Shown here: in pieces, positions 1 to 7,645 of the stretch
How positions within the stretch are numbered: position 1 is the first letter of the stretch
Layout of the letters: each line of letters begins with the position of its first letter
NCBI GenBank assembly: GCA_043817485.1
Contig: JBDRGX010000116.1
Coordinates: 1 to 7,645, forward strand
Reading direction: 5' to 3'
Origin: JBDRGX01 sp043817485 [NCBI: bacterium]
Lineage (GTDB): Bacteria > JBDRGX01
DNA length: 7,645 nucleotides
The notes under the pieces: model-generated
What the model was told of the DNA's origin: nothing
What the model saw: only the letters and a program-made list of their open reading frames with translations
Databases searched by the model: none
Position numbers and translations under genes: made by a program

Positions 1-83
1 AAATTTCTATTTTAAAATTGTTAATTTTACTAAATATGAAAATATTAAATTTTGTTTATTTTTTAAAAAAATCTCCTGAAAAA

Positions 84-284
84 TTAAATAAATTTCCTGT
101 TTTTTTTATCATATTCTTTCATATTATTTTTGACAATACCAGGAATATCCCCTTCAATCATATTCAAGGTTTCAATTTCAAAAACTCCGTTGTATTCTCC
201 ATAAATGGCATGAAAGTGGGGAATTCCATGTTCTTTAAAGTACATTTTAATAAGAATACCGTAAAATTTTGCTATTATCGGCAT
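84..284 (-). CDS. DUF4160 domain protein, short or frameshifted at its C-terminus
   Basis: The 66-residue product begins MPIIAKFYGILIKMYF and carries the HGIPHFH motif at residues 19-25 followed by YGEYNGVFEIET, which together are the hallmark of DUF4160, a family of roughly 80-90 residues often found next to DUF2442 genes in presumed toxin-antitoxin-like pairs. Its biochemical function is unknown. The start is well supported: an AAGGAG box (292-297) sits 7 bases before the ATG. A possible promoter lies upstream (TTGAAT at 352-357, 16 bases, TATTTT at 330-335). The C-terminus is odd: after IEGDIP the protein does not follow the family well and stops early. A run of eight A on the coding strand (100-107) is a likely slip site; a one-base shift there would give a somewhat longer tail ending near GDFFKK. 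No DUF2442 partner is visible in the 83 bases downstream. It is either a short functional copy or a recent pseudogene; family assignment is fairly sure, activity is not. Confidence 0.6.
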   Translation of the reverse strand: MPIIAKFYGILIKMYFKEHGIPHFHAIYGEYNGVFEIETLNMIEGDIPGIVKNNMKEYDKKNRKFI

Positions 285-329
285 TTGATTTCTCCTTGTT
301 TATCATCTAAAATTGTTGTCATTTACTAA

Positions 330-357
330 AAAATATGTGATAAAAACCAGAATTCAA
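330..357 (-). promoter_or_regulatory. Possible promoter of the DUF4160 gene
   Basis: On the minus strand TTGAAT (352-357) and TATTTT (330-335) are separated by 16 bases, each matching four of six bases of the sigma-70 consensus, about 45 bases upstream of a well-placed ribosome binding site. In DNA this AT-rich such matches arise often by chance, so this is only a candidate. The -35 lies inside a perfect inverted repeat (AGAATTCAAG at 350-359, its complement at 402-411). Confidence 0.25.
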
Positions 358-418
358 GTGCTTAAAAATTCAAAAAAAAATCATTTATTTTCATTGTCCT
401 CTTGAATTCTTTTTTCTA

Positions 419-593
419 ACTTCTTAATTGAATTTTAGATTTTGGTTTTCTTCTCAATCTAAAATCTGCAATTTAAAATATTTCTTTATAGAATTTCTTT
501 TTTTTTGCTTTATTTATAAAATCATTTTCTAAAATTAATTTTTTATTTCCACTTTTCTATTTCTTCTCGTGTTTGTTTTTTATTGTTTCCCAT
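419..593 (-). pseudogene. Decayed start of an unidentified gene, possibly an IS transposase N-terminus
   Basis: An ATG at 591-593 opens MGNNKKQTREEIEKWK and then hits TAA. Skipping one base at 545 restores a plausible reading: KKLILENDFINKA, a lysine run, then KKFYKEIF, a TAA at 473-475, then IADFRLRRKPKSKIQLRS and a TAG at 416-418. The amphipathic, Lys/Arg-rich character, and the fact that all three segments read as sensible protein once one indel and one stop are ignored, argue for a decayed coding sequence. It begins 8 bases inside the 601-647 repeat, the layout expected of a transposase that starts just within an IS end. I do not recognise the family with certainty, and no catalytic domain survives. 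The stretch 285-786 holds no intact gene. Confidence 0.4.
432..465. repeat. Perfect 10-bp inverted repeat (ATTTTAGATT / AATCTAAAAT)
   Basis: ATTTTAGATT at 432-441 is the exact reverse complement of 456-465, with a 14-base loop between. It lies within the decayed reading frame and overlaps codons for RLRRKPK, so it may be a chance product of AT-rich Arg/Lys coding. No T-run follows on either strand, so it is not a convincing terminator. Confidence 0.4.
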
Positions 594-600
594 TTTCTTT

Positions 601-647
601 GTCAAGTTTTTATTTTTATTTGTGTGGTTACTAAATCAAAATGTTAA
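601..647. repeat. Copy 1 of the long direct repeat; probable IS-end remnant
   Basis: This 47-base stretch ends in TTACTAAATCAAAATGTTAA (628-647) and matches 7570-7614 apart from a few changes in the T-rich middle; both begin GTCAAG and contain TTTTTATTTG. The two copies have the same orientation and flank the whole gene cluster. Just inside copy 1, on the minus strand, begins a decayed reading frame (ATG at 593), which is why an insertion-sequence end is the favoured reading. Unlike the right-hand copy, no second 20-mer follows at a 26-base period. Confidence 0.6.
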
Positions 648-729
648 TTCCATATAAAAGAAAGTTATTATAAATGAAATACTATGAAAAATATAAAAAA
701 ATATGAAGTATTCAAGGAGGCGATAGAGA

Positions 730-768
730 ATGATGAACATTGAAAAAAAGGCGGTATTTTTTGATTAA
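730..768 (+). pseudogene. 5' remnant of a HAD-superfamily hydrolase gene
   Basis: On the plus strand, opposite to every other gene, an excellent ribosome binding site AAGGAGG (714-720) precedes ATG at 730, which encodes MMNIEKKAVFFD and then TAA. The motif KKAVFFD is how HAD-family phosphatases of the HisB/GmhB type typically begin: the first beta strand followed by the nucleophile Asp of FFDxDGT. Everything after the first Asp is missing, and the sequence runs into the tRNA-Ser(GGA) gene 18 bases later. The combination of a strong ribosome binding site with a recognisable start suggests a truncated gene end left by a deletion or rearrangement beside the tRNA. With only 12 codons, chance cannot be excluded. 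Confidence 0.35.
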
Positions 769-786
769 AATTTTAACTGGAAAAAA

Positions 787-875
787 TGGCGGAGAGAGTG
801 GGATTCGAACCCACGTGAAGTTTCCCCCAACTCGCTCTCCAGGCGAGCCCGTTACAGCCACTTCGGTATCTCTCC
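787..875 (-). tRNA. tRNA-Ser(GGA)
   Basis: The minus strand folds as a class II tRNA of 89 bases including an encoded CCA. The acceptor stem is GGAGAGA with TCTCTCC, discriminator G. The anticodon stem CTCGC/GCGAG encloses loop CTGGAGA, so the anticodon is GGA, reading UCC and UCU. A long variable arm precedes the T arm GTGGG-TTCGAAT-CCCAC. It is the last gene of the second block, 29 bases after tRNA-Ser(CGA), and is followed by six T on the coding strand. Confidence 0.97.
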
Positions 876-904
876 ATTTAAAATTATTTTTTTTGAAAAT
901 TAAC

Positions 905-995
905 TGGCGGAGAGAGAGGGATTTGAACCCCCGTTTCCAATAAAGGAAATCACGATTTCGAGTCGTGCGCTTTCAGCCAGCTCAGCCATCTCTCC
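905..995 (-). tRNA. tRNA-Ser(CGA)
   Basis: This class II tRNA has 91 bases including an encoded CCA, acceptor GGAGAGA/TCTCTCC, discriminator G, anticodon stem CACGA/TCGTG with loop CTCGAAA (anticodon CGA, codon UCG), and a variable arm with stem TTTCC/GGAAA. Its 5' end lies only 2 bases after the stop codon of the SPFH gene, so RNase P processing must cut right behind that reading frame if they are cotranscribed. Confidence 0.97.
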
Positions 996-997
996 AA

Positions 998-1948
998 TTA
1001 TTTTTCTTTTATTAATCCTTTTAAATCCATAATTGTAGATTGATCGCTTACGATAACAGAAATTTTATCACTTAATTTTTCTACATAAAGATATTTAATA
1101 TAATTTGGATTGTTTCTTAATGCTTCATTAATAATATTAATTGATTTTTTTTTTCCTTCTGCTTCAATTACTTTTCTTTCAGCTTCTTTTCTCTCTTTTT
1201 CTATTAAAAAATCCATTTTTTTAGCTTCTTGTTGAGCTACTTGTTTTTCTTCAATTGATTTAGCAAAATCAGCTGTAAACAAAACATCTCTTAAAATAAC
1301 ATCATCAACAATAAAGCCATTTTTTTCTAATTTAATTTTTATTCTTTTATTTATTTCATCTTGAACATTGCTTCTTTTTTCTGAATAAATATCCATTACT
1401 TCATATTCAGAAATTACTAATCTTACAATTGATCTAATAGTTGGTCTAATAATTTTTTCTTCAAAATCAGGACCAATTTCATTATGAATTTTTGTTATTT
1501 TTTTCGGATTTAATCTATACCAACAAGTTAAATCAATTCCTATTTGTAAGCCCTCTTTAGTTGGAGACCATAAACTATCATCCCAATTTGTTTTTTTTCC
1601 TTCTCCTATTTTTCCACTCATTGTATATTCTTGCATTCTCACATCATACATTTTTGTAACTATTACTCCTGGCATTACAAAATTTATTCCTTGTCCTACA
1701 CTAAAAATATTTTTAGTAATATTATTAAATACCACTAATCTATGACCTACGGGAATAATTCTAATGCTCGAAAGAAAAAAAATAATTATAAAAACAATTA
1801 TTGCAATAAAAACTATTTTCATTTTAGATAAATTTGAAGAAATATCAATAACTTTTCCAAATTTGTCTGATTTTTTTAATAAACTTATTTTTTGAATATA
1901 ATAAATTATTAAACTTACAACAACTAAAAATAATATAAATTTTTCCAT
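998..1948 (-). CDS. SPFH/Band 7 (prohibitin-like) membrane protein
   Basis: This 316-residue protein resembles prohibitins and the HflC/HflK family, which form membrane-anchored oligomeric scaffolds that modulate proteases such as FtsH and organise membrane microdomains. Two hydrophobic segments (about residues 4-18 and 44-60) precede the Band 7 domain, which begins near IRIIPVGHRLVVF (62-74) and runs to about residue 235 with GQGINFVMPG and the typical DVLFTADFAKSIEEKQVAQQEA transition. A charged coiled coil spans about 230-285 (rich in KERKEAERKVIEAEG), and the tail YLYVEKLSDKISVIV (287-301) is prohibitin-like. Most relatives have a single N-terminal membrane anchor; the extra first segment with a Lys-rich loop is slightly unusual. 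The start is set by an AGGAG box 8 bases before the ATG, inside the 3' end of tadA; the gap to tadA is 2 bases, so the two are surely cotranscribed. No ftsH or nfeD is visible nearby. The specific role is unknown. Confidence 0.88.
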   Translation of the reverse strand: MEKFILFLVVVSLIIYYIQKISLLKKSDKFGKVIDISSNLSKMKIVFIAIIVFIIIFFLSSIRIIPVGHRLVVFNNITKNIFSVGQGINFVMPGVIVTKMYDVRMQEYTMSGKIGEGKKTNWDDSLWSPTKEGLQIGIDLTCWYRLNPKKITKIHNEIGPDFEEKIIRPTIRSIVRLVISEYEVMDIYSEKRSNVQDEINKRIKIKLEKNGFIVDDVILRDVLFTADFAKSIEEKQVAQQEAKKMDFLIEKERKEAERKVIEAEGKKKSINIINEALRNNPNYIKYLYVEKLSDKISVIVSDQSTIMDLKGLIKEK

Positions 1949-1950
1949 AC

Positions 1951-2412
1951 TTATTTCTCCTTTTTCCTTTGTTTCAGAAAAAATTGCTTTAATAATTTTT
2001 GAGAATCTTCTTTTAAAATACCTTTAATGATTTTCAAAGAAGCACTTTTAATATGATAATCTACTTCATAAGTACCTTTTTTTTCATTATTTGTTCCATA
2101 AACAAGAATTGGAATACGAGATAAAAATAATGCTCCTAAACACATAAGACAGGGCTCAACAGTTGTATAAAGAATAGTATTATTTAATCGCCAATTTTTT
2201 AAATAAGATGCAGCACTTGTAATAGCAATCATTTCTGCGTGGGCTGTTGAATCTTGCAAATTTTCTACTTGATTATATCCTCTTCCAATTATTTTATTTT
2301 CTTGAACTACTACAGCACCTATTGGAACTTCATTTTTTTCATAAGCTTTATAAGCTTCTTTTAAAGCTTCATACATAAATTTTTCATATTCATACACAAA
2401 ATTATACCTCAT
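1951..2412 (-). CDS. tadA: tRNA adenosine(34) deaminase TadA (CMP/dCMP deaminase fold)
   Basis: TadA converts wobble adenosine 34 to inosine, in bacteria chiefly in tRNA-Arg(ACG). The 153-residue protein has the complete zinc and catalytic signature: HAE at residues 58-60 (His ligand and proton-shuttling Glu) and PCLMC at 87-91 (two Cys ligands). EVPIGAVVV (28-36), the N at 47 and DSTAHAE (54-60) are typical of TadA rather than of cytidine or guanine deaminases. Family length is about 150, so it is full size. The ATG lies 9 bases after the CCA end of tRNA-Ser(GCU), with no ribosome binding site between; a GAGG inside codons 1-2 would suit an in-frame GTG at codon 6, so the true start may be there, still keeping the whole domain. 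It overlaps nothing and is followed 2 bases later by the SPFH gene. Related deaminases acting on nucleosides are the alternative, but the motif context favours TadA. Confidence 0.9.
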   Translation of the reverse strand: MRYNFVYEYEKFMYEALKEAYKAYEKNEVPIGAVVVQENKIIGRGYNQVENLQDSTAHAEMIAITSAASYLKNWRLNNTILYTTVEPCLMCLGALFLSRIPILVYGTNNEKKGTYEVDYHIKSASLKIIKGILKEDSQKLLKQFFLKQRKKEK

Positions 2413-2421
2413 TTTAATAAA

Positions 2422-2513
2422 TGGCGGAGAGACTGGGATTTGAACCCAGGGAGAGAAATTAATCCCTCAACTGCTTAGCAGGCAGCTGCCTTAAGCCACT
2501 CGGCCATCTCTCC
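2422..2513 (-). tRNA. tRNA-Ser(GCU)
   Basis: This class II tRNA has 92 bases including an encoded CCA, acceptor GGAGAGA/TCTCTCC, discriminator G, anticodon stem GCTGC/GCAGT with loop CTGCTAA (anticodon GCU, reading AGC and AGU), a long variable arm and T arm CTGGG-TTCAAAT-CCCAG. It stands 9 bases upstream of the tadA start codon and 69 bases downstream of tRNA-Ser(UGA). Confidence 0.97.
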
Positions 2514-2521
2514 ATTTAAAA

Positions 2522-2575
2522 TCAATTTTTAATTGAAATTTTTATTTCTTGCTTATCCATATCTATAAAAATTGA
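2522..2575. repeat. AT-only-biased inverted repeat between two tRNA-Ser genes
   Basis: TCAATTTTTA at 2522-2531 is the exact reverse complement of 2566-2575, with a 34-base loop. It fills most of the 69-base spacer between tRNA-Ser(UGA) and tRNA-Ser(GCU). The stem has only two G-C pairs and no following U-run, so it may be a processing spacer structure or chance. Confidence 0.35.
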
Positions 2576-2582
2576 AAAAAAC

Positions 2583-2668
2583 TGGCGGAGAGCGAGGGAC
2601 TTGAACCCCCAAGCCCTTTAGGGGCGCCTGATTTCAAGTCAGGTTCCTTACCATTAGGATAGCTCTCC
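2583..2668 (-). tRNA. tRNA-Ser(UGA)
   Basis: This class II tRNA has 86 bases including an encoded CCA. The acceptor stem is GGAGAGC/GCTCTCC, discriminator G; the anticodon stem CCTGA/TCAGG carries loop CTTGAAA (anticodon UGA, which reads UCA and by wobble other UCN codons). The variable arm GCCC-CTAAA-GGGC is clear. It is first in the second transcription block. The 7th acceptor pair is C-G instead of the A-T found in the other three serine tRNAs here. Confidence 0.97.
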
Positions 2669-2678
2669 CTTATGTCCT

Positions 2679-2684
2679 ATAATA
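2679..2684 (-). promoter_or_regulatory. Possible -10 box for the tRNA-Ser/tadA block
   Basis: TATTAT on the minus strand ends 10 bases before the first base of tRNA-Ser(UGA), so transcription would begin very close to the mature 5' end. No good -35 box is found 16-18 bases upstream; the sequence there is part of the TTCGAA repeat patch. The position directly behind a likely terminator makes a promoter here plausible. Confidence 0.35.
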
Positions 2685-2693
2685 AAGAAAAAA

Positions 2694-2726
2694 CGAATAT
2701 CGAAATTCGAAACAAATTCGAATGAC
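2694..2726. repeat. TTCGAA-rich intergenic repeat patch
   Basis: Two TTCGAA palindromes lie 11 bases apart (2706-2711 and 2717-2722), preceded by CGAATATCGAAA. Short degenerate reiterations of this type, with GAATTT and TTCGAA units, are common in intergenic DNA of some low-G+C Patescibacteria; that comparison is from general knowledge. The patch sits upstream of the tRNA-Ser(UGA) start. Confidence 0.5.
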
Positions 2727-2760
2727 AGAAATACATTGTAAATGGAAGTCAGAATAAAAA

Positions 2761-2868
2761 AAACTACCTAAATACATAAAAAAAAATCGAAATCCAAATG
2801 ATCAAAATTCTAAATTCAAAACAACATAATAAAAACATTTGATATTTGTATTTTAATTTTGGTAGTTT
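2761..2868 (-). terminator. 108-bp palindromic element with T-run; probable operon terminator or small repeat element
   Basis: Three nested complementary pairs fold the element into one long imperfect hairpin: AAACTACC (2761-2768) with GGTAGTTT (2861-2868), AAATACA (2770-2776) with TGTATTT (2847-2853), and ATCCAAATG (2792-2800) with CATTTGAT (2836-2843, one bulged base). On the minus strand the closing arm GGTAG runs into eight T (2756-2763). It lies 38 bases after tRNA-Val, so it could end the grpE-dnaK-rpoD-tRNA transcript. The stem is long and interrupted, unlike a compact intrinsic terminator, so a MITE- or REP-like palindromic repeat is an equally good description. Confidence 0.45.
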
Positions 2869-2905
2869 GCAATATTTTATTTTAATTGCAACTTGGAATC
2901 AACAC

Positions 2906-2981
2906 TGGTGGGCGATACTGGATTTGAACCAATGACTTCCACCTTGTGAAGATGGCACTCTAACCACTGAGTTAATCGCCC
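2906..2981 (-). tRNA. tRNA-Val(CAC)
   Basis: This class I tRNA has 76 bases including an encoded CCA, acceptor GGGCGAT/ATCGCCC, discriminator A, D stem ACTC/GAGT, anticodon stem CCATC/GGTGG with loop TTCACAA (anticodon CAC, codon GUG) and T arm ATTGG-TTCAAAT-CCAGT. It follows the CAU tRNA after 11 bases. A CAC isoacceptor reads GUG only and is dispensable where a UAC tRNA exists, so its retention in such an AT-rich genome is a minor point of interest. Confidence 0.96.
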
Positions 2982-2992
2982 AATAAAAAAAT

Positions 2993-3068
2993 TGGTGGGC
3001 CCACCTGGATTCGAACCAGGGACCGACCGGTTATGAGCCGGTGGCTCTGCCAACTGAGCTATAGGCCC
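2993..3068 (-). tRNA. tRNA with CAU anticodon, elongator type (Met, or Ile2 if lysidine-modified)
   Basis: This class I tRNA has 76 bases including an encoded CCA, acceptor GGGCCTA/TGGGCCC, discriminator A, D stem GCTC/GAGC, anticodon stem ACCGG/CCGGT with loop CTCATAA (anticodon CAU) and T arm CCTGG-TTCGAAT-CCAGG. It is not the initiator: position 1 pairs with 72 and the three stacked G-C pairs in the anticodon stem are absent. Elongator Met and Ile2 (substrate of TilS) cannot be separated with confidence; the consecutive C4-G69 and C5-G68 pairs are features reported to favour TilS in E. coli. Its 5' end is 4 bases after the rpoD stop codon. Confidence 0.93.
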
Positions 3069-3072
3069 TAAA

Positions 3073-4857
3073 TTATTCTAAAAAACATTTTAATCTTTCG
3101 TTTCTTGATGGATGCGAAAGTTTTGTAAAAGCTTTAGATTCAATTTGTCTAATTCTTTCTCTTGTTACATTAAACATATATCCAATTTCTTCAAGCGTTC
3201 GAGGTAATCCATCTTCAATTCCAAATCTTAATTTAATTATCTTCTCTTCTTTGTTACTTAAAGTACTTATAACTTTCAACAACTCTTGCCTAAATAATTT
3301 AGAAGTAGTTTCTTTAACTGGTGAAAAAGCAGATTTATCTTCAATAAAATCACCTAAATGAGATTCATTATCTTCTCCAATAGGAACTTCTAAAGAAATT
3401 GCTAATTGAGAAACTTCTAAAATAGAAATTACTTTTTCTACGGGAATAGACAATTCTTTAGATATTTCTTCTACTTTTGGTTCATAACCAAATTTTTGCA
3501 AAAGTTTTCTTGAAGTTCTTATAATTTTATTTATTAATTCATTCATATGAACTGGAATTCTAATTATTCTTGATTGCTCACCAATTGCTCTTGCAATTGA
3601 TTGTCTAATCCACCATGTAGCATAAGTACTAAATTTATAACCCCTTTTATATTCAAATTTATCAGATGCTTTTATTAAACCAATATTCCCTTCTTGAATT
3701 AAATCCAAAAATTCTAAACCCCTATTCATATATTTTTTGGAAAGACTGATTACTAATCGCATATTAGATTTTACTAATTTCATTTTTAATTCATGTATTT
3801 TTTCCTCTGCTTGCTTTATTTCTTTTACAATATCTACAATTTCTAAAGCACTAAGTTTCATTTTTTTTTCCATTTCTTTTATACTATGGATATTACTTTT
3901 TATAGATTTATTTATTTTTTTAAATTTCTCTGAATCAATATTAAAATTATTTTTAGATGATTTTTTTTTTTCTTCATAAAGTATTTTTATTATTTCATCA
4001 ATATCTTTTTCTTCAATTTTTTCTTTTTGTAAAATTAATTTATTTTCTTCTTGAAGTTCTTCTATTTTTTTTCCTGTTTCTTTAAATATATCAACTATTT
4101 TTTTAATTTCATAATTATTCAAATTTAATTTCAAAAAAATATTAATAATTTTTTCTTTTTTAAAATTAATAGTTTCTAATAACTTTTCATTTTCTTTTTC
4201 ATTTATTTGACTATAATTTACTTTTTTACACAATTTATCAAGTTTTTCTTGTTCTAAAATTATTTTGTGTAATGTATTTTTTACTTTCTTTTTTAAAAAA
4301 TTTTTTTCTTCACCAGTCCATATTCCTTCATAATCTAAATGTATAATATTTTCCACTTTTGTATTTTTTTGTTTTATTATATCAGTTAAAAATTCTATTT
4401 CTTTTAAGGATATAACTGTTCCAAAAATCATTTTTTTTATTTTATTTTTATAATCATCAATTTTTTTTGCTATTTCAGTTTCAATTTCTTTTTCTAATGG
4501 CTTTAAGTTACTCATTTCTTTAAAATACATTTTAGAAAAATTATCAAATTCAACTTTTTTTTCTAATCTATCTTTTAAATCTTTTTCAATTTCTTCATTT
4601 TCATTATTGTTTAAAACATTATTTTCTTTTTCAATTTCTTTATTTTTGTTTTCATTTTTATTTTCAAAATCACCAACTTTAATACCCAATTTATCAAAAT
4701 AAATAAAAATTTTATCCATTTCTTCGGCAGAAAATACTTCTTTTCCAACAAATTTATATATTTTTTGATAATCAATAAAACCTTTTTCTTTTCCAAGATT
4801 AATTAAAGGTTTTAATTTTCTTAAATCAATTTTATTTTCTATTTTTTCTTTAGACAT
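3073..4857 (-). CDS. rpoD: RNA polymerase primary sigma factor (sigma-70/RpoD)
   Basis: This is the housekeeping sigma subunit that directs RNA polymerase to -10/-35 promoters. The 594 residues contain all the classical parts in order: region 1.1 (about 10-63, [13 protein letters not shown] and FSAEEMDKI), an acidic Asn/Lys/Glu linker (64-100), region 1.2 (about 104-135), a non-conserved region (about 136-345), region 2 (about 355-425, with [24 protein letters not shown] and the -10 recognition segment [19 protein letters not shown]), region 3 (426-500, IRIPVHMNE) and region 4 (about 520-590, with helix-turn-helix [20 protein letters not shown] for the -35). Region 1.1 and the large NCR mark it as a primary, not alternative, sigma; E. 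coli RpoD is 613 residues. The NCR is unusually rich in Lys, Ile, Asn and Glu. The start shows only a weak purine-rich ribosome binding site, but region 1.1 begins normally. It follows dnaK by 83 bases and precedes a tRNA by 4. Confidence 0.97.
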
Positions 4858-4895
4858 ATTTCTTTCAATTATTAATTTTTTACAAAAAACTTAAT

Positions 4896-4923
4896 TTTAT
4901 AAAAATAACAATTTATTTAACAA
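4896..4923 (-). promoter_or_regulatory. Possible promoter between dnaK and rpoD
   Basis: On the minus strand TTGTTA (4918-4923) is followed after 16 bases by TATAAA (4896-4901), placing a start about 30 bases upstream of the rpoD ATG. The 83-base gap between dnaK and rpoD has no clear G+C-containing terminator hairpin, so rpoD may be expressed both from here and by read-through from the chaperone genes. The base composition makes chance matches likely. Confidence 0.35.
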
Positions 4924-4940
4924 AAAAAATTTTTATAAAT

Positions 4941-6860
4941 TTATTCTTTTACTTCTTTATAATCTGCATCTATTACATCATCATTATTTTTTTTTGATTC
5001 ATCCTTTTTATCTTCATTTTCATTAGAATTTTGAGATTCTGTTTGTTCAGAAGTTTGTTGTTGGGTTTTTGAATATATTGCTTCAGCCAATTTATGAGAT
5101 ACTTGTGTAAGTTTTTCCAATCCTTTTTGAATTTTTTCTATTTCATTAGTTTCCATATCTTTTTTTAAATCATTCATTGCTTCTTCAATATTTTTTCTTT
5201 CTACTTCATCTACCTTATCTCCATATTCTTTTAAGCCCTTTTCCATAGAATAAACTAAAGCATCTGCTTGATTTTTAATATCAATTAATTCTCTTTTCTT
5301 TTTATCTTCTTCAGAATGAGATTCTGCTTCTTTTACTAATTTTTCAACTTCTTCTTTATTTAAACCACCAGAAGGTTGAATTCTAATTTTTTGTTCTTTT
5401 CCTGTACCTAAATCTTTAGCAGATACATGAACAATTCCATTTGCATCAATATCAAATGTTACTTCTATTTGAGGAATACCTCTTGGAGCTGGAAGAATGC
5501 CTATTAAATCAAATCTTCCTAATGTTCTATTATCCATAGCCATTTCTCTTTCTCCTTGAAGTACATGAATAGTAACTGCAGTTTGACTATCTGCTGCTGT
5601 AGAAAAAACTTGAGATTTTTTAGTAGGAATAGTAGTATTTCTTTCAATTAATTTAGTGAATACTGATCCCAATGTTTCAATTCCTAAAGAAAGAGGAGTT
5701 ACATCTAACAAAAGTACATCTTTAACAGTACCAGATAAAACACCACCCTGAATAGCAGCACCAATAGCAACTACTTCATCTGGATTAACTCCTTTATGAG
5801 GTTCTTTTTCAAACAAGTCTTTAACTATTTGTTGAACTTTTGGCATTCGAGTCATTCCACCAACTAATACAACTTCATCTATTTCTTTTGCTGTTAATCC
5901 AGCATCTTTTAATGCTTTTTTACAAGGTTCTATAGTTCTTTCTACAAGATGATTAGTAATTTGTTCTAATTTAGCACGAGTTAAAGTAATATTAAGATGT
6001 TTTGGACCTTCTTGTGTTGCAGTAATAAAAGGTAAATTGATTTCAGTTTGTCCAGTTGTAGAAAGTTCACATTTAGATTTTTCTGCTGCTTCTATTAATC
6101 TTTGTAAAGACATTTTATCTTTTTTTAAATCTATTCCTTCTTGTTTTTTAAATTCATCTACTATCCAATTCATAATTACTTGATCAAAATCATCTCCACC
6201 TAAATGAGTATCTCCATTAGTAGATTTTACTTCAAAAACTCCATCACCTATTTCTAAAATAGAAATATCAAAAGTTCCTCCACCAAGATCATATACAGCA
6301 ATTTTTTCATTTTTTTTCTTATCAAGTCCATAAGCCAATGCTGCTGCTGTTGGTTCATTTATTATTCGAAGCACTTCTAATCCAGCAATAGTTCCAGCAT
6401 CTTTAGTTGCTTGTCTTTGACTATCATTAAAATATGCAGGTGTTGTAATTACAGCTTGTGTAACTTTTTCTCCCAAATAATCTTCAGCAGTTTGTTTTAA
6501 TTTTTGTAATATCATTGCTGAAATTTCTGGAGGAGTATATTCTTTATCTTGTATTTTTACTTTAATTTCACCAGCAGATCCTTTTATTATTTTATAAGGA
6601 ATTATTTTCATTTCTTCTGTCACTTCATCATAATGTCTACCCATAAATCTTTTTATAGAAAATATTGTATTTTCTGAATTAGTAATAGATTGTCTTTTTG
6701 CTATTTGTCCAACTAATCTTTCATTTTTTTTAGTATAAGCAACTATAGATGGAGTTAATCGAGACCCTTCGGCATTAGCAATTACTACTGGTTCTCCACC
6801 CTCCATAATAGATACTACTGAATTAGTAGTTCCTAAATCAATACCAATTACTTTTGACAT
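4941..6860 (-). CDS. dnaK: Hsp70 chaperone DnaK
   Basis: DnaK is the ATP-driven Hsp70 that binds exposed hydrophobic segments of unfolded proteins in the cytoplasm, working with GrpE (nucleotide exchange) and DnaJ. At 639 residues it is full length. The nucleotide-binding domain (1-375) shows phosphate loop [10 protein letters not shown] (5-14), [20 protein letters not shown] (137-156), [13 protein letters not shown] (166-178), DLGGGTFD (191-198) and LVGGMTRMP (332-340). The linker [13 protein letters not shown] (381-393) leads to the substrate-binding domain (to about 500) and helical lid (to about 600), then a Gln/Ser/Asn-rich tail ending [11 protein letters not shown], the usual DnaK C-terminus. 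The ATG overlaps the TAA of grpE by one base (TAATG), and an AAGGAG box (6869-6874) lies 8 bases upstream inside grpE, so translation is coupled. No dnaJ follows; rpoD does. Confidence 0.99.
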
Positions 6861-7408
6861 TACATATTCTCCTTTCTATTTTTAACTACTTTTACTAAAG
6901 ATGGTTTTATTACAATTTCATTTAAAATATAACCTTTTTGAATTTCTTCTATAATTTCTTCATCTTCATATTCTGTAGTTTCTTCCATTAAAATAGCATG
7001 ATGTAAATGAGGATCAAATTTTTTACCCATAGCTTCAATTTTTTTTACACCATTTTTTTCTAAAAATAAACAAAGATCATTTAAAATATTTTTTACACCA
7101 GAAGATAAAGATTCAAAATCATTTTTTTTTTCTATAGATTCATAAGCTCTTTCAAAATTATCAATTATTGGAAAAATTTCTTTTAACAAAGATGTATTAC
7201 TAAATTTAAACCACTCTGCTTTTTCTTTAATTGTTCTTTTTTTAAAATTATCAAATTCTGCTAATAATCTTAAATATTTATCATTTACTTCTTCTAATTG
7301 ATGTATATTTTCTTGTATTTTTTCATATTCTTTTAAGGATAAAGTAATTTCTTTTTCTTCTTCTTTCTCTTCTACATCTTCTTTTTCAATTACTTCTTTT
7401 TCTTCCAT
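6860..7408 (-). CDS. grpE: Nucleotide exchange factor GrpE
   Basis: GrpE is the homodimeric exchange factor that releases ADP from DnaK. The 182-residue product begins with an acidic, low-complexity Glu/Lys segment (1-22), then a long dimerising coiled coil (about 25-70) with [14 protein letters not shown] (45-58), the helical part with [14 protein letters not shown] (77-90), and the beta-wing domain with FDPHLHHAI (131-139) and [21 protein letters not shown] (156-176), all strongly conserved in GrpE. Length is normal (E. coli 197). AGGAG at 7418-7422 lies 9 bases before the ATG and fixes the start. It is the first gene of the operon seen here; an hrcA gene, often located upstream in other bacteria, is not present in the 237 bases before the window ends. 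Its stop codon overlaps the dnaK start. Confidence 0.97.
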
Positions 7409-7473
7409 TTTTAAAATCTCCTAATTAATTTCATACTTTTTAATTTTTTATACCAAGTTGTATTCAAATGCTA

Positions 7474-7501
7474 ATTATATTAGATTTGTTATCATTTTGA
7501 A
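7474..7501 (-). promoter_or_regulatory. Candidate grpE-dnaK promoter
   Basis: On the minus strand a perfect -10 TATAAT (7474-7479) lies 16 bases after TTCAAA (7496-7501, four of six matches to TTGACA). Transcription would start near 7467, giving a leader of about 60 bases before grpE. It is the only consensus -10 in the 237-base region upstream of grpE that I find, and directly overlaps an imperfect CIRCE-like sequence (7448-7474). Confidence 0.45.
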
Positions 7502-7544
7502 TATTACTTAATTTTCATACTATCTAATTTTTTGATAAAGTGTA

Positions 7545-7574
7545 AAATAAAACAAAACAAATTTAAAAAGTCAA
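7545..7574 (-). promoter_or_regulatory. Second candidate promoter upstream of grpE, -35 in the repeat end
   Basis: TTGACT (7569-7574, five of six matches to the -35 consensus) overlaps the inner GTCAAG edge of the long repeat and is followed after 18 bases by TTATTT (7545-7550), a weaker -10. If used, the repeat remnant contributes half of a promoter for the chaperone operon. The -10 is poor, so this remains a suggestion. Confidence 0.25.
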
Positions 7575-7640
7575 GTTTTTTTTATTTGTTGTGATTACTA
7601 AATCAAAATGTTAACGATAATTACTAAATAGAAATGTTAA
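7570..7640. repeat. Copy 2 of the long direct repeat, with two tandem 20-mers
   Basis: TTACTAAATCAAAATGTTAA at 7595-7614 is identical to 628-647, and the flank down to GTCAAG at 7570 also matches copy 1. A second, diverged 20-mer TTACTAAATAGAAATGTTAA follows at 7621-7640, a period of 26 bases, and the array may continue past the window. Tandem degenerate 20-mers at a fixed spacing look like repeated protein-binding sites, as at the ends of some insertion sequences. No transposase lies next to this copy, so it would be a solo end. Confidence 0.6.
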
Positions 7641-7645
7641 TTTTT

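Follow-up and report, generated by a model that had tools for sequence, protein, structure and literature searches.

The stretch of DNA considered here (hereafter the window) comprises 7,645 nucleotides of contig JBDRGX010000116.1, with a G+C content of 25.5%. Its minus strand encodes grpE, dnaK, a sigma-70 factor, a TadA-like deaminase, a Band_7 protein, a DUF4160 protein and six tRNAs, as read from open reading frames (ORFs) and Pfam matches. The host is probably a member of the Omnitrophota, judging by its DnaK: among the matches listed, nine of the first 11 were named Omnitrophota or Omnitrophica, with a best identity of 73%. The window also carries a repeat, the exact 20-mer TTACTAAATCAAAATGTTAA at 628-647 and 7595-7614, with a copy bearing two mismatches at 7621-7640. 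We propose, with a probability of about 0.85, that an insertion sequence (IS) of the IS1202 family, from its ISTde1-like branch with long target-site duplications (TSDs), inserted here twice, that the repeats are its ends, and that this branch targets sigma-70 promoters. The IS family that left this remnant is already known; the rule by which it would target promoters appears to be new.

With up to three mismatches allowed, the 20-mer matches the window at three places where 0.01 would be expected (200 dinucleotide shuffles), and a position matrix for IS-end sites, built from 15 sites in other genomes only, scores these three at 25.6, 25.6 and 23.7, against 9.3 for the next best place in the window and 17.2 for the best of 200 shuffles. 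Both measures bear out the repeats described in the original prediction, whose tandem 26-bp period (7595 to 7621) is also correct and is read here as the paired transposase sites of the IS1202 family. The prediction had further extended the repeat through a T-rich flank back to GTCAAG. That flank is present, but GTCAA stands 17 nt from the IS end in copy 1 and 15 nt in copy 2, so GTCAAG is better taken as a common target feature than as an extension of the repeat; read on the minus strand it is CTTGAC, the putative -35 box of the target, which the prediction had not recognised. GTCAA occurs in the window only at 601 and 7570, in each case just outside an IS end (plus-strand TTGAC occurs five times), and the chance that both would fall at 15-18 nt, on base composition alone, is about 7e-6.

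An intact relative and the identity of the repeats

In a first search of 11 genomes the motif turned up in one, G005 (L008, Ca. Omnitrophota AUK068), at six places with at most two mismatches, where the reversed control gave no match. Contig C52 of this genome carries two copies of the 20-mer, with one and two mismatches, which lie inverted around an ORF of 405 aa that matches the ISNCY_2 transposase (NF033594, E value 5e-102). The intact IS is 1384 bp long, with TGT..ACA ends and two site copies in each end. The original prediction had named an intact transposase adjoining the motif, with its far end marked by inverted copies, as support for an IS, and G005 has this arrangement. The IS1202 group of ISNCY has been moved to a new IS1202 family, in which each end contains a further, inner transposase site (Harmer et al. 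2023, PMC10132070). Both ends of the G005 element combine TGT..ACA with such an inner site, and its length lies within the 1.3-1.75 kb of the family; in the window, copy 2 has two sites and copy 1 has one. All 17 aligned related transposases match NF033594, with D142, D203, E253 and Q260 (the Q seven after the E) invariant among them. A single-sequence transposase search of the PDB gave no match; a profile of the 17 matches TnsB chains there (E value 7e-9, profile positions 27-159), in line with the TnsB-based modelling in PMC10132070.

A motif scan of 285 Omnitrophota genomes (two free positions, at most one mismatch) found the motif in seven genomes at 13 places, with one control match. G210 holds a truncated left end with a transposase start and G190 a right end, and four other places outside G005 (L125-L128) look like chance. 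L122 in G246 (minus strand, about 765-875) is a short element that has both IS ends but encodes no transposase; it lies 17 nt upstream of a TTGACA and looks like a derivative of the miniature inverted-repeat transposable element (MITE) type.

Against these references, copy 2 is clearly a left end on alignment: its gapped scores are 65 with the left end of G210 and 57 with that of G005 (shuffle maxima 42 and 34), and 36-50 with four right ends. Copy 1, with its single site, scores 30-35 against whole IS ends, close to the shuffle maxima of 32-42, and is identified as a left end by its transposase remnant. The 16 residues TMKNIKKYEVFKEAIE (681-728) align with TMKDIKKYEILRQLID in the G005 transposase at a score of 54, which none of 300 shuffles reached (maximum 46). 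A stop codon follows four codons after the remnant, and the copy finishes before the tRNA-Ser at 787. The earlier suggestion of solo IS ends fits copy 1, of which only the first part of the element is left. It had also been envisaged that recombination between the copies might excise or duplicate about 7 kb. We read the copies as two separate insertions at two promoters; the excision or duplication is without support, and we reject it.

Proposed insertion at the edge of sigma-70 promoters

In G005 the contigs break within the IS, and flanks were paired across contigs. Two TSDs were recovered in this way, TGGGAAGTTTAACAGGG of 17 bp (C52 and C42) and CCAATTTCAATAGGGTGC of 18 bp (C88 and C41), both of which continue directly into TTGACA; on a further contig, C112, TTGACC follows after 15 nt. 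The -10 boxes of these promoters, read at 17 nt, are TAAAGT, TATAAT and TATACT, and the genes behind them match NusA, IspF (YgbB) and an LPG_synthase_TM protein. Altogether, six of the seven left ends inspected outside the window with a readable flank have TTGAC at 15-18 nt (C41, C42, C112, L122, L124 and L169).

The position was then surveyed more broadly with the G005 transposase, which found matches in 47 of 285 Omnitrophota genomes at 1e-20 and, at 1e-25, in 11 of 296 Spirochaetota, 26 of 297 Desulfobacterota and 12 of 297 Acidobacteriota, as well as in 4800 plasmid records, from which 12 regions were taken. Elements were delimited by a finder blind to TTGACA, which sought TG..CA ends with an inverted-end similarity of at least 9/26 and an exact duplication of at least 13 bp, one mismatch being allowed from 16 bp. 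From 116 loci, 35 different elements were counted, after 80 without a TSD of at least 13 bp and one duplicate had been dropped. TSDs of 15-18 bp occur in 33 of the 35 (16 bp in 19 elements, 17 in eight, 15 in four and 18 in two), and the other two have 24 bp. In 19 of the 35, the edge of the TSD coincides exactly with the start of a match to TTGACA of at least 5/6, beyond the right end in 15 and beyond the left in four, while no other offset from -14 to +45 has such a match in more than two elements. Against the rate at other offsets (13/3807), and with sites taken as independent, p = 7e-31; the 19 include three sites of one G460 IS. Edge matches come from all four phyla and from one Paenibacillus plasmid (L204), and downstream of such promoters lie genes with matches to ketoacyl synthase, DHBP synthase, PGK and aminotransferase, with no Pfam match for L103, one of six pieces tested.

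In the consensus a C precedes TTGACA and T-A-x-A-x-T follows 17 nt later, with the -10 box 16-18 nt after the -35. The -10 match averages 4.79/6 at the edge sites, and 2.46 at the 174 TTGAC sites found elsewhere in these flanks (p 5e-11). The 14 elements with TSDs of up to 18 bp and no strong -35 at the edge (L113 and L221, with a -35 displaced by 1-2 nt, are among them) nonetheless have a -10 match of 4.14 at offset 0, compared with 2.57-3.29 at offsets 3-24. This favours recognition of a promoter over recognition of the word TTGACA alone, although selection may contribute.

A multi-copy genome and an empty site lend further detail. G571 holds 20 copies of one 1436-bp IS, with ends located in 18 and not found in two; 12 of the 18 have TTGAC 12-20 nt outside an end, giving 13 sites where 0.31 would be expected from the rest of the flanks. 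Among these 12, L247 adjoins another copy's end; L149, L156 and L163 are also among the 35 elements above. A TSD of 14-16 bp is kept in six of the 18, and recombination between copies may explain its loss from the others. Between L247 and the TTGACA that closes this other copy there are 16 nt, so an IS end may itself act as a target. In G460 the IS (1327 bp, TSD 17) precedes the ribosomal S21 gene, and its joined flanks match G315 without interruption (350/350 bases at 98%); in this empty site, a single copy of the 17-mer continues directly into TTGACA..TATAAT.

From these comparisons we conclude that the long-TSD IS1202 branch targets sigma-70 promoters. The family, the ends, the duplications and the fixed position relative to the promoter are read from sequence; we infer in addition that the transposase is guided by promoter-bound RNA polymerase or sigma rather than by naked promoter DNA. 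Each window copy would have inserted 15-17 bp upstream of the -35 of a promoter reading away from the IS, its transposase recognising the sigma-70 promoter, perhaps via the RNA polymerase there. Staggered cuts would fall on one strand at the upstream edge of TTGACA and on the other about 16-17 bp further upstream, in the region where the alpha C-terminal domains of the polymerase bind. The duplicated segment and the whole core promoter would then stay with the host gene, and the IS would sit in front without breaking a gene; with the core promoter intact, it could settle before essential operons such as grpE-dnaK.

Exceptions and competing explanations

Several observations weigh against this interpretation. 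Within the window, both -10 boxes are weak by eye (that of copy 1 is TAAAAA at 17 nt), and one end per copy is visible. L168, with the closest near-full-length transposase (57% identity), lacked a TTGAC beside its left end, and no long TSD was found for it; at L122 no matching duplication was seen by eye. The 80 of 116 loci without a long TSD are uninformative, the end that faces the promoter is not constant across the family, and ORFs show no clear excess on the promoter side (14/19, against 11/17 on the other). Among the 35 elements, 16 lack a 5/6 match to TTGACA at the edge, including L113 and L221, where such a match lies 1-2 nt away. No convincing promoter was found at the TSD edge of L149, L164, L176, L216 and L219, and that of L100 and L156 has a loose promoter only. 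L198, L199, L202 and L223 have dif-like flanks instead, by reading against Table 8 of PMC10132070.

These last four form one branch with L206 and L207, both of which we labelled as putative dif elements (support 100/100 in an unrooted tree of 38 rows), separate from the promoter elements. L202 and L223 carry 24-bp direct repeats (with one mismatch in L223) and weak inverted ends of 9/26, unlike the 5-bp TSD of dif hunters, and their ends may be misplaced. We would put at even odds the broader idea that an entire branch within the IS1202 family consists of promoter hunters, in which a TnsB-like transposase docks on RNA polymerase-sigma70 and inserts at the upstream edge of the -35, thereby gaining safe sites before essential genes, and in which dif-hunting is a switch to XerC as docking partner. 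The direction of any switch between promoter and XerC docking is a guess, as the tree is unrooted.

The same IS and the same position could also arise if the sequence TTGACA, resembling the element's own end, were what the transposase reads, with RNA polymerase uninvolved. Several right ends do finish in TTGACA (L106, L110, L115, L116, L146 and the G571 element), and L247 was inserted beside just such an end; we nevertheless think this explanation unlikely, since ends of the G005 type do not finish in TTGACA, the -10 match at 16-18 nt far exceeds that of other TTGAC sites, and elements with a weak -35 still have a -10, even if selection against insertion in genes could yield part of that signal. 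Random insertion with survival only in front of promoters would agree with the mostly intergenic sites (by reading of the loci) but leaves their single-base position unexplained, with 19 at offset 0 and at most two elsewhere; on account of this peak we rejected it as very improbable.

The original prediction had offered a dispersed binding site as its second option, and a motif for a host regulator upstream of promoters, such as a heat-shock repressor, would suit the two window copies, each of which precedes a -35 box with the same orientation, one of them ahead of grpE-dnaK. Against this stand the transposase remnant adjoining copy 1 and the paired inverted IS ends, flanked by exact duplications, that the motif forms elsewhere (G005), and the regulatory reading was rejected as having a slimmer chance still. 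A palindrome or a CIRCE-like operator at the repeats was likewise weighed by eye and dropped.

Related elements and the remainder of the window

The related elements described here resemble the long-TSD group of the IS1202 family (ISTde1, ISCARN62, ISCARN63, ISHahy13 and IS1202; PMC10132070) in the kind of transposase, the TGT..ACA ends, the inner extra site, a length of 1.3-1.75 kb and a TSD of 16-17 bp, and the G460 element has the length and TSD given there for ISTde1. They differ from the group as published in their target, which here is the upstream edge of a -35 box, whereas no conserved target is reported for long-TSD members in the portions used of Harmer et al. 2023 (PMC10132070). Three TSD classes are given in PMC10045372. 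Members with TSDs of 24-29 bp (IS1202, ISSeq2) fall outside our sample. Siguier et al. 2023 (Plasmid 127:102696), going by its abstract, reportedly distinguishes three subgroups by TSD length, one of them targeting Xer sites. Among the papers listed in literature searches there was no report of promoter targeting by the IS1202 family, though Siguier et al. 2023 could contain such a rule.

The dif hunters of the ISAjo2/ISAba32 group are likewise of this family and insert at a fixed distance from a host landmark, but with a TSD of 3-5 bp and dif as target (5 bp from the XerC site), whereas the G005 TSDs are 17 and 18 bp and lie beside TTGACA; no dif-like flank was seen by eye at the window copies. 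TnsB of Tn7-like elements and CRISPR-associated transposons (CAST) offers a further likeness, in the PDB profile match, the TGT ends and the repeated end sites (PMC10132070). Those systems differ in that ours are one-gene elements, with no TnsC, TnsD or guide RNA partner within the 1384-bp G005 IS.

A precise target, in which the edge of the duplication falls on the first base of the -35 box, would be gained for an IS group that has none in the literature examined. If the rule is true, TnsB-type transposases would gain a host landmark of a second kind alongside dif, and each insertion would mark a real promoter, which could help promoter mapping in uncultured bacteria. Bacteria would also have a one-protein counterpart of elements directed to transcription complexes, such as Ty1 and Ty3 in yeast.

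Table 1. Features in the window (positions 1 to 7,645) that bear on the proposed insertions
Feature	Position	Strand	Basis
Possible third, decayed IS end	27-48	+	Matrix scan and gapped alignment of window 1-80
TTGAC of CTTGACA, putative -35 box, target of copy 1; promoter reads left	601-605	-	GTCAA scan
Interval of 17 nt from -35 to IS end; position of the target duplication in relatives	606-622		Distance; TSDs of relatives
Copy 1, left end and beginning of a decayed IS1202-family element; one site only (628-647)	623-745 (right limit approximate)	+	TGTGGTTAC end as in relatives; site matrix
Transposase-start remnant TMKNIKKYEVFKEAIE	681-728	+	Alignment to G005 transposase
grpE (6860-7408) and dnaK (4941-6860), genes behind the promoter adjoining copy 2	4941-7408	-	ORFs, Pfam
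TTGAC of CTTGAC, putative -35 box upstream of grpE-dnaK, target of copy 2	7570-7574	-	GTCAA scan
Interval of 15 nt from -35 to IS end	7575-7589		Distance
Copy 2, IS left end; two sites (7595-7614, 7621-7640); continues past the window	7590-7645	+	Alignment to reference ends

The weaker look-alike near the start of the window (Table 1) is not among the ungapped matrix matches; on gapped alignment of window 1-80 the shuffle maximum is exceeded for a single reference end of six (score 36, shuffle maximum 32), and the scores for the remaining five fall below it. A search of viral contigs did not find the exact 20-mer, and a search of genome contigs found no relative of the window's Band_7 protein. 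The first annotated gene behind the copy 1 promoter is that for the DUF4160 protein (84-284, minus strand), more than 300 bp away across AT-rich non-coding sequence. Four tRNA-Ser genes (anticodons GGA, CGA, GCT and TGA) are clustered at 787-2668, interspersed with the Band_7 and TadA-like deaminase genes. In the sigma-70 factor (3073-4857), a long low-complexity stretch separates region 1.1 (13-88) from region 2 (361-430), and its matches in five genomes of G005's order span the C-terminal half only, at 39-54% identity.

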